Below are positions 1,885 through 11,930 of a stretch of 64,000 nt of DNA, piece after piece (position 1 is the first letter of the stretch; every line of letters begins with the position of its first letter). Both the position numbers and the translations under genes were made by a program. The stretch is from positions 17,733,106 through 17,797,105 of the forward strand of contig OX424560.1 in assembly GCA_949152475.1 (NCBI GenBank). Reading direction: 5' to 3'. This stretch comes from Terebella lapidaria. Its lineage: Eukaryota; Annelida; Polychaeta; Terebellida; Terebellidae. The notes beneath the pieces are model-generated. The model was given only the letters and a program-made list of their open reading frames with translations. It did no database searches and was not told where the DNA came from.

Positions 1885-4262
1885 AATTAGCCCAAAGGCT
1901 AAGATAGGTTGCCGACTTTGGCCCAACGATTCATCCAACCATTTGACAACGTCTAACCAAAGTTGGACCAACGCTCATTCATAAATGCATATTAGTCGGG
2001 CATGTACCACAAACACAGATAAAGGATTCCCTTTGCACCCCCCCCCCCCATGATCCTCCAAAACCAACTTTTTTCTCAAGGTTTTTTAATACTAATAAAC
2101 ATTACATATGTCTCCGGTTGCGCATCCATTGCAAAAATTGGTTTTTGGGCCATTTTTCAAAATGGCCGCCCCGCGAAATCTCGAATTTTGAGATTACTTC
2201 ACTTTAAGCTGCATAGGTCTACAAAATAAAATGTTTGTTACCTTTTGCTGCTCATTGTAGGGGCCTTATACATTGTACATGAGAAAACAGTGGTTAAATA
2301 AACATTTATAATATGAATATGTCCATAAATCCAAGATGGCCGCCAAATTTAGATAATTTTTCACTAAAATGTCCATAACTTCGGATGTTCCTAGACCTAG
2401 GATGTTCATTTTGGGGTCTATACCTAGGTTTTCATATACAGGGAATCCATTTAGACCAAAATAAATACAATCAAGCTATTTCTTTTGATGCATGCATCCA
2501 AGATGGCCGCCAAATTTAGATAAGTTTTCACTAAAATGTCCATAACTTCGGACTGAGTCAACCTAGGATGTTCATTTTGGGGTTTATTCCTAGGTTTTCA
2601 TATACAGGGAATTCATTCAGACCAAAATAAATACAATCAAGCTATTTCATTTGATGCATGTACACCTGCACACATGGTACACGCTACACATTCATTTAGA
2701 TATCTCTCGAAAATAGACCCCTTGACACCCCTATGGTCTCAATTGTGGATCTTGCTTGAATATTTCTGATAGAGACTTTTACTGATTTGCAATCCCAATA
2801 AATCCTTGAACAAATAGAGCTAGATTTGATTAGTTTTGTTAATTAACAGAAATCCAAGATGCCTGCTAAACACACCCCGAAAATTCAAGTTCGTAACTAA
2901 TTGTGCTATAAAGATGTGTGATACTTGCTTTCAAGGGTATTTTGGTATGTAGATTCCATTTTTGGTGTTATTCTAGCTATATAATATCAATTTAAAATGA
3001 TAACAGCATCTCATTGAGATGGAAAGCAAATAAAAACATATTGTTATTTGAATTTATTCATACACTCATGCATTACGCATTACTCACCAACATGTTTGGG
3101 ATACTTTTTATATCACAAACAGAGAACAATAATGTAGAATATCTTCATTGGCTATCTTAACACATGAACATGATGGAACATGGTACTATGATATTGGTAC
3201 TGCTATATTGGCTGAATTGACATATTAACTGATGATGTCTTCACCATTGACCTGCATTCTCTTGCAGTACAACAACGTTGTCTTGAGCTGAAATAGCTTG
3301 ATTGTATTTATTTTGGTCTGAATGGATTCCCTGTATATGAAAACCTAGATATAGACCCCAAAATGAACATCCTAGGTTGACTCAGTCCGAAGTTATGGAC
3401 ATTTTAGTGAAAACTTATCTAAATTTGGCGGCCATCTTGGATGCATGCATCAAAAGAAATAGCTTGATTGTATTTATTTTGGTCTAAATGGATTCCCTGT
3501 ATATGAAACCCTAGGTATAGACCCCAAAATGAACATCCTAGGTTGACTCAGTCCGAAGTTATGGACATTTTAGTGAAAAATTATCTAAATTTGGCGGCCA
3601 TCTTGGATTTATATACATATTCATATTATAAATGTTTATTTAACCACTGTTTTCTCATGTACAATGTATAAGGCCCCTACAATGAGCAGCAAAAGGTAAC
3701 AAACATTTTTATTTTGTAGACCTATGCAGCTTAAAGTGAAGCAATCTCAAAATTTGAGATTTCGCGGGGCGGCCATTTTGAAAAATGGCCCGAAAACCAA
3801 TTTTTGCAATGGATGCGCAACCGGAGACATATGTAATGTTTATTAGTATTAAAAAACCTTGAGAAAAAGTTGGTTTTGGAGGATCATGGGGGGGGGGGGT
3901 GCAAAGGGACCCCCCGTACATGCCCGACTATATGTTATGTTGGTCAAACATTTGCTCATCGGCCTAAGGTTGGCTTCAAAATGTGTGCAATGTTATCATC
4001 ACTCATTTCCTCTGCGAAAGAAGCAAATCCAACACGGCGGCCATTTGGTCATTTAGCAACATTGCCCCAACGTTGGTCGAACGTTAGTCAAATAGGCTCG
4101 ATTCATTCTCCCAACGTTGATTAGATATCACCTTCTTGTTGTGAATTGAGTGTAGTACTGCGGGTTTCTTTGATGTTGGTCAAAACGTTGACCAACATTG
4201 TTAGGCCAACGGCGACCCCGCCAACTTAATGCTACCATTGGCCCAACGTGTGCATGTTATCT
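1885..4262. repeat. GTTGG/CCAAC-rich repeat interrupted by a TIR element
   Basis: Both sides of the palindromic element at 1993-3930 are dense in GTTGG/CCAAC words, including CCAACGTTGG, at about 1885-1980 and 3940-4262. This looks like one older repeat with internal clusters of this palindromic word, split by a later insertion. Outer ends and family are not resolved. No coding sequence is visible in it. Confidence 0.4.
1993..3930. mobile_element. 1.9-kb non-autonomous DNA transposon with about 650-bp inverted arms
   Basis: The left end TAGTCGGGCATGTAC (1993) is matched by its reverse complement ending at 3930, and the inversion continues for about 650 bp on each side (1993-2652 and 3289-3930). 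Shared landmarks are a C/G run of 10-13 bases, CCTTGAGAAAAAGTTGG and AATCCAAGATGGCCGCC. Each arm is itself built from two direct sub-repeats of about 165 bp (near 2330-2490 and 2497-2660 on the left), so there are four sub-repeats in head-to-head pairs. The spacer 2660-3288 has no open frame of note. TAT lies on both sides and may be the target duplication. No transposase is present, so it must have been moved in trans. The superfamily is not assigned. Confidence 0.8.
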
Positions 4263-5573
4263 GGGAAACGACACAATATAACAAACGACACAATATCACA
4301 ATACAAGCTTAATTTCACCCATTAGTGATACTCTACCGCTCTGCAAAGTTTCGTGCTTGTAACACAATGTGAACAATTCCTAAGGATGCGCCAAATGATG
4401 AGCTATGAAGTTGCACTATTACGGAGTTCATTTCCAGTTTCTGGTGAACACCGTTTGAATATGATGACATTACTGTCATTCTGGGTGTTTATATTTTTCG
4501 ACGCATTTTCAGCTATAATATTAGCATCTGTTTGACAAGTATTGATATATCCAATTAATTCACCATAATTCGTTTTCAACCATTTGTTTTTCAGTCAAAA
4601 GGAATAGGCTACGTGTTGTCGATGTGGGAGAGATAGCTACTTCTTCACAGTGGCAACACATTTCAGATATTTCAAAATGAATGAATGACAAGGTCCAAGC
4701 TGTGAGTGATCATATTGTAACTCATATCGCCGATATCGGAAATTTAGAAATGTTGATGTCACTTTGCCACGGACACATTATGATGTGTCGATGAGAATCA
4801 TAATGTATTTTCTCACATGACAGATTGAACTTCTGTTGATGGCATATATATACTTTTTACCATTTCATCATATATATCCGTATGTGTGTCATCGTGTCAA
4901 TGTATAGCGCGAGACAATTGCTAATTTTATTGAATAATCCAGTTGGAAAGAATATTATCTTATCTCGTTTTTGTCTGCATAAAGCGTGCCCCAAATTGCA
5001 CTATATAATCAGCAACCAATGACGATCGAATCATAGTAACTGTATCATAGTATGAAAACTTATAATCATACGATTCGGACATAGTTTCACAGGTGAAATT
5101 TCGGTTGGGCAGTGGTGAATAGTAAATAACAGCTTCGAACTGATTTCAAGTGATTCCATCGAACATGTCCCAAGACAGGACAAACACACTAAAAGTGGCG
5201 TCATCATGATGTTGAAATATTCGTTGTACTTGAAACTACAGGATTCAACAGTCCCAATATATTCTCACAATTTGGATACATGGACTGCCACCTCGAGACA
5301 CGCTAGATCAACTATATCGGTTCATCTGTTCATGGTCCATCCTCCTTCACTGTCTGGGGGTAAATATCTTCAGAAACAGGGTGTTCTTCGTCCAGTTGGC
5401 ATCTTACCAAGGTTAGTTCATCATCAGTAGAAACAATCGTGGTTCGGACTCGAACGAGCAGTGGAAATTATGGAATTTTGAGAATTATTGATGCTGACCA
5501 GTTCAAGCAGGACATATTTGCAAACGTGGACTGCTCATATTGCACCATCCATTGTATGGTGAAATTCTACATA
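4263..5573. other. Gene-free stretch
   Basis: No supported gene, RNA or repeat was seen. Short frames (4353-4535 and 5206-5430, plus strand) show no family motif and no coding-like splice context. Confidence 0.4.
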
Positions 5574-6589
5574 TAGTGCAGCGGATATGTGCCAAATATG
5601 AGAAGGATTGTGGGTTTGGTGGTAAGAGCACCAAAATTGGTACAATTCAGGCTAAGTACATATCGATTTTAGCTACAATACCAAGACAGATTTTGCCCTA
5701 ATTTAGGAATATGGCAAAAAATCCAAGATGGCCGCCATCGTTCATGTAAAAATGGCTATAACTTCCGTAACATTTAACATATCAATACAAATAAGGTGTC
5801 TACACCTATGTTTTCTTACCTGGGGAAGCAAACTAGACCATTAGATTTCGCAATCACTAAGACTAGGACTCGGAGTCAGCAGTCAAAACTGATCAAATGG
5901 ATATAATCCAGGTGTTCTACTTGAAATTACACTTGTAACAGATTTTTTTTCTGGATACACTCTCTCTCTTTTAATAGTATCTTGTGAAAACCATGTTATA
6001 CACCTCATTTGCATAATAAAAAAATTACCTATTTCAAATTGTGCCTATTTTTTGGGGCCAAATTTAAAAATTCACTGATTAAAAATGTCAAAATCATACT
6101 TTTAGCACTGCTAGTTCATCAGAAAAAAACTTCGAAATAAATATATAAAATTACTCATTACATCAATCCAACATGGCTGCCTAAATGATCCACAATAATG
6201 AGCCACAATAAAACAAAATTAAAATAAAATGCAGTGTAATTAAAATGGACAGGTTTTCTTTGGAACAATATGTTTGAATCGAAAGGAAGAAATTGATATG
6301 GTGTGTGTTTTGCTGCCACAGACATAAAATTATCGTTTCATACCCGATGAGTGAGAATAAACATATGCAAGAACCAGTTGAAAGAGTTCAGGTCATATGT
6401 GATCATGATCACCAAGTGACAAGTCAACACTTCTAAGCTGGTAAAGCTTACACTATGTCACTATCTGCATAACTCTGTGTAGCACAGGCTATTTTTCCTG
6501 TACACCTCTTTGACTTCAGTCTTCCTGCAGTCAAATGAGATGATGTCCATTAGATTTGACGTGTAATTCCTAACGGTTGGTCTCTAATT

Positions 6590-6950
6590 GAAGACATTTC
6601 CATTGATGAAATGTCATCCTCGGTCGCTTCGGTTGGCAGTTAACAGTATGGTACTCGGCTGTGATGTTGCAACACTAGGCAGTACAAATGTAGTATTTGT
6701 AATTCTGATGCAGAAGTGCTCTCTGCGACTTTGTCACAAAACCGCCGGTATTTCAAGCTGCCAATCTCCCAATCTTCAGTACTTCCGAACAATGATACCA
6801 ATGCTTTCTCCCCAGTGTCTTTTTGTGTCTGGATCAGAGTGGTGAATATTTTCGCTTGCTCACAGAAGATGCTATGGTGTTCTTTGTTCCTTGACTGCCA
6901 AAACCTTCTTTATCCAAAACGGTGGTAGGTTGTTGATTGATTGATTGAAC
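6590..6950 (-). pseudogene. Decayed copy of the GCDTT-type transposon gene, left arm
   Basis: Read on the minus strand, this segment encodes stretches such as EKALVSLFGSTED and KYRRFCDKVAESTSAS that align with GDEALVSLYAGAED and HQQRFCEKVAKNSSAS in the right arm. Stops and frame changes interrupt it, so it is a relic. The family is the long uncharacterised invertebrate/fish protein type that I recall as having a TGCDTTS..FG.GK motif followed by an L(Y/F)-G segment. Its biochemical role is not known to me. Confidence 0.6.
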
Positions 6951-7235
6951 GGATGAACAGCAAATGGTCGCTTACATGTTGTTCGGCCCAGCAACTCTCG
7001 AGACTTTTCCATGGAACGGAGTCGTTTCTTCTCTGCTGACTACTTGGGTTCTGGTATCATGAGATCATCTGCGTCCCTTTCAGGATGACGACGAACAAGA
7101 ACCAGTCAGTGTAAACATTACTGTGTTCCTTTAAGCTTTTGGTTGATCTATTAATGTATATCTGCATCGTGACAGTCATACAGCAACCAAATCTCTGCTA
7201 TTGTATAAAGCGTAGCTGGTTGCATGGATCTTTCA

Positions 7236-7237
<2 letters not shown>

Positions 7238-7268
<31 letters not shown>

Positions 7269-7269
7269 T
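7238..7269. repeat. (TAA)n microsatellite, LINE tail
   Basis: About ten TAA units in a row. This is the 3'-terminal trinucleotide tail of the adjoining minus-strand LINE rather than an independent microsatellite. Confidence 0.85.
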
Positions 7270-7423
7270 TATTCTTCTATAGCGCAAATAAATATTGAAC
7301 ATATCTCATTGCACTTTACAGATAAAACAATATGAAAAAATAAGATACGAGTAATAAAACAAAGATGTAAATCATGAGAATAAGACCAAATTTGACTAGA
7401 ACAACATCGGAAAAATTACATGG

Positions 7424-9180
7424 TTACACGTTAATGAAGGCTTGTTTAAAAAGATGCGTTTTTAGTTTATGGTGGTGGCTTGCTTGAGGTCACTGGGCAA
7501 TTGGTTCCATAGAGTAGGTCCAGCAATTGAGAATGCCCCATCTCCATAGCTGCGAGTCCTAGACATAGGCACAGTCAGCATAACTGTAGAATTTGATCGG
7601 AGGGATCGGGTTGGCATCTTGATGTTGAGAAGGGATGTTATGTAGTCCGGCGCAAGATTGTGTAGGGCCTTGTACACGAGCAACAGGACTTTGTACGAAA
7701 TACGCTGGGTGACAGGCAGCCAGTGAAGTGTGCACAAGATGGGCGTGATGTGTTCACTCCTAGCTCCGGTCACTAACCTGGCTGCGATGTTTTGGACCCT
7801 CTGGATTTTGTTGATTTTGTCGAGTGGTAGTACAAACAATACACTATTGCAGTAATCCAGTTTGGACAGGATGAATGCATGAACGAGTTTTTCGATCGAT
7901 GGGCGGTCCAGATATTTCCTCACATGAGCAATATACCGCACGCTAGCAATTGCCGAGCGGATGAGTCTGTTCACGTGCTCATCCATTGTGAGTTGTCGGT
8001 CCAGTATAACACCAAGATCACGGACACTATTGCCTGGAGCGACAGAGGAGTTTCCGACAGAGATGTTGGAGATGAGGGCTACGGACCGATGACGTGAAGA
8101 TAGATGCATCACTTCGGTCTTGCTGGTGTTCAGCTTCAATTTGTTGTGGAGCATCCACTGATTGACATGGGTGAGACAGTCTTCTAACAGTTGAACGTTG
8201 GTAGAGTTGCCATGCTGAAGGCTCACGTACAGTTGGGTGTCGTCTGCATAACAGATGTAGTTGATGTTATATTTACGTATGACGTCACCCAGGGGAGCCA
8301 TGTACATGGTAAAGAGCAGAGGTCCAAGTACAGACCCTTGTGGCACACCCCAAGCCAGTGGTTGAGATTTGGATGTGCCAGAGGGGAGTCTCACAGCCTG
8401 GGAGCGCCCAGCGAGGTAGGATTTAATCCAGGTCAGCGTGTTGCCCGAGATGTCATATATGTGTTCCAGTCTATCAAGTAGGATAGCATGGTCGATCGTG
8501 TCGAAGGCAGCACTGAGATCTAGCATCACCAGCGCTGCCTGTTCGCCTCGATCCAGATTCAGGAGATCATTGGTCACTCTGACAAGGGCAGTCTCGGTTG
8601 AGTGTGAGCGGCGGTAGGCTGATTGAAACTGATCCAGCAGTTGATGTTGGCTTAGGTAGGTGTTGAGCTGCGTTACTACAACTCGCTCCAGACACTTGGA
8701 GATGAAGGGCAACGCTGACACAGGTCGATAGTTGGAGAGTGTCTCACAGCATAGTCCCGGCTTCTTCAACAATGGTGATATCAGAGCGTGCTTGAAAGGG
8801 GCAGGAACGATGGATGATGAGAGCGATTGGTTGATGATATCGGTGATGACTGGGAGCAGATCTTCTATACACAGTTTGAACAGCCAAGCAGGGATCGGAT
8901 CACAAGCTGATGATTTACATGGGGATTGTTCAATGATCCGCTTGACATTTGACTGGGTTACAGTGACCCAGTCACACAGAGAAGGTCTGAACTCTTTCTG
9001 GGGCCCCTCAACAGGCTGCCACTCGGTACTGGTGTCGAGATTGGCTTGTTCATCGAGATCCTTGCGAATTGAGCTAATTTTCAGGACAAAGTATTCGCTG
9101 AAGGCTCGTGATGGCGTTGTTATGAGGTATGCCTCATTTCTCGACTGGTTGATTATTCCTTCATCAAAATGCCCTGACAC
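7424..9180 (-). pseudogene. LINE reverse transcriptase, partial ORF2
   Basis: An open frame of 572 codons (9180-7462) encodes the polymerase of a CR1/L2-group LINE, which copies its own RNA at a nicked target. Visible motifs in order are SNYRPVSALPFISKCLE, FQSAYRRSHSTETAL, LDLSAAFDTIDH (first catalytic Asp), WGVPQGSVLGPLLF, CYADDTQLYV (catalytic YADD), then the thumb and a C-terminal HWLPVTQRISYKVLLLVYKA segment typical of the group. The upstream endonuclease domain is missing. Near 7460 the frame ends early. The usual C-terminus (KTHLFKQAFINV) is seen in another frame, ending at 7424, so there is one frameshift close to the end. Otherwise the frame is open, implying a fairly young copy. A cellular gene is unlikely. 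Confidence 0.9.
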
Positions 9181-9759
9181 GGCAGCAAATGAGAATCAGC
9201 TTTAGTTGTTGATATTGAATTCAAATGTGGAACCTCGAGGCCTGGGTAAACGACGGAGTACAACACCTTTTAGTTCGGTTCACCGATTCAATAATCATAG
9301 GTCCCGATCAGTGTAAAGAGCTCTGCTGTCGGATTTAAGTCAGGTGTAAGACCCAACACTTACTCTGAGTTTAAACGTTATGTTCAAGTCAGATTGTGTA
9401 ACCATCCATTCAGTCAGTTCAGCAGTAACCATTAGAAACTAGTGATCAAGCAACAAGCTCAGGCAACAAGCAGTGCTTCATATTATATCCCCTGAGTAGC
9501 ACATGGGTAGCTGGTTGTATTCCACGATGCAAGTACACTGATAACTGAAACAGTAATGTCTTCAGCTCCAGGGAATAGTAGGAAACAGCACTGACAAGGG
9601 AATGCACCAACTTGTTGATCCCCCTGATCCATTATGCTGAACTATGCTTGAAATAGACTTGATGATATTGTACATGACTTATTCATGGCACCAAAACCCA
9701 ACAAGCCAACACAGAAGGGATAATTTAATATATTGTCGAGAGTTGCCGGGCCAAATGTA

Positions 9760-10140
9760 TGCGACCATCTGTGTTCATCCTTTCAATACAAGGATGTGAC
9801 ACAACCTGCCCTCTCTTTGGATCGGGAGGAGACTAGAAGCCAAGAAACCAAAAACCTATGACAGTTTCTGTGAGCAAGTGAAGATATTCACCACCTTGGA
9901 CCGAACAAAGCAAGCCATAACAATTACAGGAGATGAAGCTTTGGTATCATTGTACGCAGGTGCTGAAGATGAAGGGATTGATAACTTCGGACACCAGCAA
10001 AGGTTTTGTGAAAAGGTAGCGAAGAACAGCTCTGCATCGGGACCACAAATGCCACATCTGTGTGTACCACAGCTTTCGTGTTCACTATCAGGTAATGCAA
10101 AGGGCAGGAACTTGCAACAACGTGAGGCCCGCTGACTGTG
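9760..10140 (+). pseudogene. Decayed GCDTT-type transposon gene, right arm
   Basis: On the plus strand, frames around 9770-10130 carry in order LSIQGCDTTCPLFGSGGD, then KIFTTLDRTKQAITITGDEALVSLY... (9878 onward), FCEKVAKNSSAS, and in a shifted frame VYHSFRVHYQVMQRAG. The order GCDTT..LFG, an ALVSLY segment, an FC.KVA segment and YHS.RV.YQV matches a family I know only as large uncharacterised proteins scattered in invertebrate and fish genomes. Frame changes and stops show that it is dead. The longest open piece is 85 codons (9878-10135). It mirrors the minus-strand relic in the left arm. Confidence 0.65.
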
Positions 10141-10906
10141 GGTGATATATCATCAACGTCTCCAAATATAGATTGACCTTCCAGCAGGCCCATCAAATCC
10201 ACTGGATGTCATCTTGTGTGACTGCAAAAAAGACTGCAGTCCGAGGAGGTGGACCCACAGGAAATATCATATACCATGCAGTGCATAGATGTGTTCAAAG
10301 CTTGACATGCTACGAGCTTTACCAACTTCAAAGTGCCAGACTTGTCACTTGAGGATGACGACATATAAGCGGAACCCTGTGACCTGTCAACTGTTTGGTT
10401 GCAGGTGTTCATTCTCACTGGTTGGTTCTTGAACGATATTTTCGTATATATGTGGCATTAAAAAGATTTATCTCATCAATTTATTCCTTTGCTGCAAACA
10501 TGTTGTTTGGATAGAGTGTCGGCTTTAATTTTACGGCACACATATAGGTTGAGTTATGAATTCTGAAGTTAAACTTCTGTGTTTTGGTGGGTCATATGGG
10601 GAATTGGCACCGTGTGGGTCACTGTATGTAGAATCTGAGTATCTAGTTGGCTTCCCCATGTCACAAAACATAAGAATGGACACCTTATTTGTCTTTGTAT
10701 GTCAAATATTAAAAAGTTATGACCATTTCCATATTTTGATACGAGCGATGGCGGCCATTTTGGATTTTTGGCCATATTTCTGGGTTCGGGCAAAATCTGG
10801 CTTGGTATTGTAGCTAAAATCAATATATATGTACATAGCCTGATTTGTACCAATTTTGGTGCTTTGACCACCAAACCCACAATTATTCTACATATCTGCT
10901 GCACTA

Positions 10907-11660
10907 ATAAGCCCACTGGCACCGCTGGTTTTCGCACAGGCTCCACTCCTGACCAGGACAGTCACATTATTTACAATTCTACACATGACGTGTAAAATGC
11001 GTTTGAATGCTTGCAGTGGAGTGCGCGAAAATACTGTCTCGGAAATGGATTGGGAATTCACCGCCAGCTCTCTTAACAGAAACTTATGTTGTGAATTGTA
11101 TATAGGCCAACACAAAGCTGAAATAATATTATCAGATGAAGATACTGGAGTATTTCCATGACCAAAAAGAAATTCACAAGAACAGTGATCAACTGTACCT
11201 CCTTGGGAAAAATCAATTGGATACATTTCGGGAACATGAGTCTGTTCCAGAGCTTGCAAGTGAGTTCAGAGCGCTTCCATGAGAAGACTGCTACCGTCTG
11301 GGGGGTAATCTGGGGCCATGTACCAAAGAGGTGGTTATCAGTCTTGCAGTGTCAATCAACGTATACGGCGAGTCTGCAGTCGAAGTAACTGACTGTTTTT
11401 GTACCAGACACTGAATATGAGATTCACGTAAGGGAGATTGTTAAGGAATCGCCGACTCATGCAACATAAACCCGATTCAAACGTTGTTGTTGAATTCCTG
11501 CATTGACCAGCATCTGCCATTTATCACGAAGATTGTCAAGCCATATCATACCTAGGGTGCGGTAGCAGCCTCTTTCAAGAAGGCTAGCTTAGTATTATTC
11601 GACCTCTGCTGACAAAATTAGGACTGCATGAAAAATTCTTTGTTCAACTGAGCTATCTTT
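10907..11660. other. Gene-free stretch
   Basis: Two overlapping frames (minus 10888-11259, 123 codons; plus 11158-11388) lack recognisable motifs and are probably chance. Nothing else was seen. Confidence 0.35.
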
Positions 11661-11930
11661 CCAAAATGTTGGAAATGGTAGTTGTTCACCACCCAGATAT
11701 ATCAAACTTCGAGGACCACCTAGATCCGAACAAACTATGACCATTTGTATATAACCATCTTAATTCAATGGTAGCCCAGTCAACATCACGTCAACCAAAA
11801 TGTTGGAAATGGTAGTTGTTCACCACCCAGATATATCAAACTTCGAGGACCACCTAGATCCGAACAAACTATGACCATTTGTATATAACCATCTTAATTC
11901 AATGGTAGCCCAGTCAACATCACGACTAGG
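11661..11930. repeat. 135-bp tandem duplication
   Basis: Two essentially identical 135-bp units (11661-11795 and 11796-11930), each starting CCAAAATGTTGGAAATGG and containing TTCGAGGACCACCTAGATCC. A third, partial copy starts at 12952 as part of the larger 1.13-kb duplication. Confidence 0.9.

Follow-up and report, generated by a model that had tools for sequence, protein, structure and literature searches.

The stretch of DNA analysed here (hereafter the window) comprises 64,000 nucleotides of the annelid Terebella lapidaria (contig OX424560.1, positions 17,733,106 to 17,797,105 of the forward strand). Between positions 5574 and 10906 it holds a mirror-image, decayed transposon, one among many copies in the genome, whose two arms carry relics of a single gene of a type we refer to by its GCDTT motif. 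The element starts with TAGTGCAGC at 5574 and stops with GCTGCACTA at 10906, with ATA on both flanks; these end motifs and flanking duplications bear out the boundaries given in a preliminary description of the window, which was made from the letters alone. The arms align in two blocks. Their outer parts (5593–5847 against 10898–10632; 255–267 bp) are 79% identical over 268 columns (E 2e-58), and their inner parts (6230–7062 against 10538–9683; 833–856 bp) are 65% identical over 885 columns (E 1e-77). The inner block carries the similarity of the arms through the gene relics, a point on which the preliminary description had made its own reading depend.

Searches by tblastn with the protein of locus L025 (on C1), the nearest relative with long open frames among the loci examined, match both arms on opposite strands, and thus support the earlier proposal of opposing relics of one gene. 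Each relic reads from the centre outwards (left, 7105–6658, minus strand; right, 9673–10282, plus strand). The right-arm sequence is ILSIQGCDTTCPLFGSG, its GCDTT starting at about 9792, and the aligned stretch of the left arm reads FIRSI-NQSTTYHRFG, where the GCD has been lost. The view that each arm contains a GCDTT-type relic therefore stands for the gene tail, which is the same in both arms, and falls for the GCDTT motif itself, which is kept only in the right arm. At the protein level the arms are 46% identical to each other, and the palindrome encodes no working protein.

The relics match only residues 527–787 of the 789-residue C-terminal open reading frame of L025, i.e. its C-terminal third; the upstream part of the L025 gene has no match, at E up to 1e-3, in the window or in the 16 further copies described below. 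With the L025 protein as the query, both arms are matched in nine of the 17 copies (the window copy included) and one arm in the other eight. With the right-arm relic as the query and the cut-off relaxed to E up to 1, both arms of all 16 elements yield codons, though L036 has only 24.

The middle of the window copy, about 1.9 kb, is a retrotransposon fragment, which we infer to be of the non-LTR (long terminal repeat) type. The fragment interrupts the alignment to another copy of the palindrome (L028) and so is most likely a later insertion, its absence being judged against that one copy. Minus the insertion, the window copy measures approximately 3.4 kb. Just downstream of the palindromic element, at 11661–11924, lie two identical tandem copies of a 130-bp sequence with a period of 134.

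Table 1. Features of the palindromic element and its flanks, in window coordinates.
Feature	Position	Strand	Evidence
Whole palindromic non-autonomous transposon copy, TAGTGCAGC...GCTGCACTA	5574..10906	.	Sequence, arm alignment, copy comparison
Left target-site duplication, ATA	5571..5573	+	
Left terminal inverted repeat, better conserved outer part	5574..5847	+	79% identity to right end over 5593–5847; repeated genome-wide
Left-arm gene-tail relic (L025 protein residues 538–690)	6658..7105	-	tblastn
Reverse-transcriptase fragment insertion, TAA-repeat at one end	~7240..9124	-	RVT_1, E 2.1e-36; breaks alignment to copy L028
Right-arm relic of the same gene tail (L025 protein residues 550–762), GCDTT from ~9792	9673..10282	+	tblastn
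Site where the window copy is without ~315 bp present in copy L028	10538..10539	.	Comparison to L028
Right terminal inverted repeat, better conserved outer part	10632..10906	-	Arm alignment; repeated genome-wide
Right target-site duplication, ATA	10907..10909	+	

Copies of the palindrome and their ends

Searches of the genome (762 Mb) gave at least 72 matches for the left arm and at least 91 for the right arm, with 40 candidates scored for each. Twenty regions were fetched: two gene loci, two other relatives and 16 element copies (L027–L042), the last picked because matches to the left and right arms were close together. All 16 copies have inverted arms like those of the window copy, with identities of approximately 60–67% inside, rising to as much as 83% at the ends. 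Leaving out the multimer L042, the 15 remaining copies and the window copy range from 3,725 to 6,225 bp; 14 of these 15 other copies measure 3.7–4.4 kb, and L040 measures 6.2 kb. In the same set of 16 elements, exact target duplications flank 14 (twelve of 3 bp, one of 4 bp, and one that is ambiguous in a run of G); the duplication fails in L032, where two bases match, and in L039, where none does.

The 26-base end motif occurs 172 times in the genome (89 + 83) when up to three mismatches are allowed, and a reversed control pattern has no occurrence. Among the 100 places listed of these 172, 60 form 30 facing pairs, with 21 of the pairs 3.4–4.4 kb apart and nine not. No title or abstract on this palindromic family was found in the open-licence literature searched.

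Comparison of the 16 elements in 120 pairs gives a mean identity of 88.0% (75.8–97.8) for left arms and 91.5% (84.2–99.4) for right arms. As the inner arms of an element are only some 65% alike, the arms diverged before the present copies spread.

L042 (C7:11018400–11028300) is a head-to-tail multimer. Its units measure about 4.3 kb, a fused end junction lies near positions 5294–5454 of the locus, and its matches recur about 17.3 kb further on, to C7:11049371, as if segmentally duplicated. At L044 (1661–5647), relics of a related arm stand in tandem with a spacing of about 1.8 kb.

GCDTT genes and the nuclease they may encode

Genes of the GCDTT type are numerous in this genome, with at least 127 matches in one search (127 of 722 candidates scored) and at least 110 in a second (105 of 949 scored); a few of these matches are the palindrome copies themselves. 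A gene of this type lies in an 8,412-bp element at C1:48175184–48183595, which has a copy of 8,417 bp on C5 that is 99% identical to it (L055/L056 and L057/L058). Its 0.57-kb terminal inverted repeats align over 556 bp at 96.6% identity, its TAGT ends read TAGTCTGGAGGCC... on the 5′ side and ...GGCCTCTGAACTA on the 3′ side, and it is flanked by 3-bp target duplications (GTA/GTA on C1; TTG/TTG on C5). Its open frames span at least 468 residues (cut by the locus edge) and 949 residues, and its first 2.7 kb contains no open frame of 80 residues or more; a 393-residue stretch of its protein recurs on C13 and C14 at 100% identity. Repeats spaced by about 157 bp start right after its 3′ target duplication (L055, from 5799).

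Two further pairs of gene copies, C11/C13 (97–99% identical) and L025 with its copy L026 on C16 (95%), have 3′ ends that read TAGTCCAG and (T)AGTACAG inwards; these resemble the TAGTGCAG of the palindrome and the 3′ TAGTTCAG of the 8.4-kb element. The supposition that the GCDTT gene belongs to a mobile element is thus upheld by one of the three pairs, in which the gene lies in a transposon with terminal inverted repeats and 3-bp duplications. The accompanying expectation, that genes with open frames sit between inverted ends, holds fully for that pair and in part for the other two, where a similar terminus is seen at the 3′ end. Within the transposon protein of the C11 copy (L047, about 3240–3776) there is an in-frame run of short degenerate repeats (SLDGAEDRTTD-like), which gives many off-register matches to the near-identical C13 copy.

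A parent of the palindrome was sought by setting 100 listed of the 172 end motifs against 192 gene places, themselves drawn from the matches listed. An end motif lies within 20 kb of a GCDTT gene in four pairings, three of which are palindrome copies (C2:19.02 Mb, C15:0.89 Mb). The fourth is a candidate, possibly a full-length relative sharing the palindrome's ends, with the motif at C9:17652550, about 4.6 kb 5′ of the GCDTT gene at C9:17646807–17647919 (minus strand); this gene is absent from the matches listed for the relic search.

A profile of four sequences of the GCDTT region (A1), compared with the PDB, matches Exonuclease 1 with an E-value of 2.1e-4. Five of the six PDB matches listed are to Exonuclease 1, in chains which we take to be human, and the sixth (E 0.99) is unrelated; the reversed profile has no match in the PDB. 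The alignment spans residues 44–243 of Exonuclease 1, about 200 residues, and includes the motifs VFDG...K, xxAD, DxDLL and GCD...GIG in order, with GCDTT..GIGK placed on GCDYLSSLRGIG of Exonuclease 1. To judge from this profile similarity, the GCDTT domain is probably an XPG/FEN1/EXO1-like nuclease; we call it ‘-like’, a distant relative, because the Pfam XPG_I model misses the GCDTT places listed. Scans of GCDTT proteins against Pfam, NCBIfam and PHROG returned no family at the cut-off or with a convincing E-value, and no GCDTT relatives were present in the viral contigs or prokaryote contigs searched.

The central region of the protein (profile A2) has conserved acidic, D-rich motifs, and its profile has no match in the PDB. 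The nuclease domain is part of a large transposon protein and is followed by a C-terminal cysteine pattern that resembles a CXC segment.

Origin and affinity of the palindrome

Taken together, we consider it most likely that the element descends from an AcademX-like transposon as an old, non-autonomous derivative, formed by inverted duplication of the 3′ end of the larger element. AcademX is a lineage of the Academ superfamily whose nuclease is of the XPG type. According to PMC10045372, which cites Kojima (2020) on this lineage, AcademX target duplications are of 3 or 4 bp and AcademH ones of 9 or 10 bp, linked to the encoded nuclease and helicase. The fit to AcademX follows from this reported combination of a nuclease with 3–4-bp duplications: such duplications flank 14 of the 16 palindrome elements and both copies of the 8.4-kb element, a nuclease is recognised at the profile level (A1 against Exonuclease 1), and terminal inverted repeats surround the gene in one element, present in two copies (556 bp, 96.6%). 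The preliminary description had advanced the gene family as a candidate for an undescribed system, for which neither the probable EXO1-like nature of the GCDTT domain nor this AcademX combination speaks.

The case for an inverted duplication of the 3′ end lies in the extent of the relics, since what is matched in either arm is confined to the C-terminal third of the gene. The distance from the gene end to the terminus is 1,127 bp in L055 and approximately 855 bp in the palindrome copies L030 and L040. An arm looks like a gene tail together with the 3′ end of an element of this type, which inverted duplication with loss of the rest explains simply. The earlier idea that the element was an inverted dimer of a whole gene-carrying unit finds no such backing and is rejected, as at E up to 1e-3 nothing of the gene but its tail is matched.

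The large protein encoded by the parent would have had cysteines in its N-terminal region, a central part in which a DDE-type transposase may reside, an XPG/FEN1/EXO1-like nuclease domain that includes GCDTT and, at its C terminus, a cysteine-rich segment of CXC-like type. The palindrome would have come about when the 3′ part of such a transposon, comprising the tail of the gene, the untranslated stretch 3′ of it and the terminal repeat, was duplicated in inverted orientation and everything upstream of the gene tail was lost. The palindrome could then have been moved in trans by an enzyme of this kind acting at its ends, leaving duplications of 3 bp and rarely 4 bp. In this scheme the nuclease would probably trim or cut DNA at the ends of the transposon as it is excised or integrated, and those ends, which the enzyme has to recognise, would have diverged less than the dead insides.

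Between arms, divergence amounts to 0.413/0.325/0.457 at the three codon positions (1,120 codons pooled from 16 related elements), whereas pairs of genes with open frames have a stronger excess at the third position, e.g. 0.372/0.244/0.608. Between copies, the right arm has a mild third-position excess (0.060/0.054/0.086) and the left almost none (0.148/0.156/0.168). From the flatter pattern, most arm divergence seems to have accumulated without coding constraint, as would be expected if most of it postdates the loss of coding.

The divergence of the arms might instead be that of two parent families, if two already diverged relatives had been joined head to head. Such a hybrid would suit arms that are only 65% identical inside, compared with 88–92% among copies of one arm, and the mild third-position excess that remains between them. 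We nevertheless think it improbable, as the outer ends resemble each other (79%, in other copies as much as 83%) more than the insides do, the arms share 46% identity at the protein level against 28–37% with the closest gene that has a long open frame, and the third-position divergence of the arms (0.46) lies below the value of about 0.61 found in gene pairs with similar divergence at the first and second positions. Fragments of a gene in both arms of an element with terminal inverted repeats also recall Pack-type capture, in which the transposon would have taken up unrelated host-gene fragments twice in opposite orientations. This is very improbable, and we reject the uptake of a host gene: the gene exists in many copies and, in the resolved case, is borne by a transposon with a similar end motif and the same duplication length, and the same gene end stands at the same place in both arms.

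A further alternative concerns classification only, and its likelihood is not to be added to that of the hybrid. The GCDTT transposons could form a superfamily of their own, AcademX-like merely in duplication length and nuclease, of which the palindrome would be the non-autonomous derivative. The failure of Pfam, NCBIfam and PHROG to offer a convincing family for the proteins scanned, the remoteness of the EXO1 similarity, and the fact that Academ is known here by description and not by a reference sequence all lean this way, yet we regard it as unlikely, since a nuclease with 3–4-bp duplications is the very combination reported for AcademX (PMC10045372) and Academ elements are, in PMC10294476, described as numerous in bivalves and as long, with a mean of 5,565 bp. 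Quite unlikely, in our estimation, is the fullest form of such a proposal: a separate, unnamed animal superfamily with TAGTN ends and 3-bp duplications, in which an EXO1/FEN1-like nuclease would be fused to the transposase as an essential cutter and inverted derivatives of the 3′ end would be long-lived.

Several observations weigh against derivation from the 3′ end of an AcademX-like element. The codon-position pattern of the arms is intermediate, not flat, and comes from a protein-guided alignment; the identity of the relic to the closest protein that has a long open frame is only about 28–37%; and the 16 copies do not count as independent of one another. The 5′ end of the 8.4-kb element is TAGTCTGG, not TAGTNCAG, a TAGTNCAG-type terminus is seen only on the 3′ side in the C11/C13 and L025/L026 pairs, and, among the listed end motifs and listed genes, an element combining the palindrome's own TAGTGCAGCGG ends with an open gene was not established. 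As regards the proteins, single-sequence searches do not detect the nuclease, and in one of them designed repeat proteins are matched by chance with E as low as 0.011; Pfam XPG_I (PF00867) has 12 matches in the genome, none at a listed GCDTT place. No DDE domain was detected, the best of the sub-threshold matches being CPV_RdRP_N (E 0.012), which is plainly noise, and DUF659 (E 0.037), the latter in one protein and in none of the others scanned.

Comparison with known systems

The analysis ties the GCDTT proteins, which are very numerous in this genome and without a Pfam match, to a transposon group, such that annotators could stop counting them as host genes. Structure-specific DNA cutting is a candidate activity for them, as predicted from their sequences, and this raises the question of what use a cut-and-paste transposon has for an EXO1-like enzyme. 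The palindromes, as a family, are a curiosity in the decay of transposons.

EnSpm/CACTA elements have target duplications of 2–3 bp and a 5′ end that begins CACTA; we reject this assignment, the palindrome having TAGTG at its 5′ end and CACTA at its 3′ end, which is the reverse arrangement. Foldback-type elements and Mutator-like elements with long terminal inverted repeats are similar in being non-autonomous, with very long inverted arms around a spacer. Mutator-like elements make target duplications of about 9 bp. The palindrome differs from both in its 3-bp duplications and in arms that hold the decayed gene tail of another transposon group.

With the XPG/FEN1/EXO1 family, the GCDTT domain shares a profile match of about 200 residues and catalytic motifs in the same order; the relationship is remote and is missed by the Pfam XPG_I model, and the domain here lies within a large transposon protein that also has a CXC-like segment. 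With AcademX, the element has in common that it is a DNA transposon with 3–4-bp target duplications and an associated nuclease, here XPG/EXO1-like, whereas the window element is non-autonomous and palindromic and is likened to AcademX by description only. We infer AcademX membership from anatomy, as set against the published description; for all its unusual shape, the palindrome most likely branched off from a transposon group that is already known.

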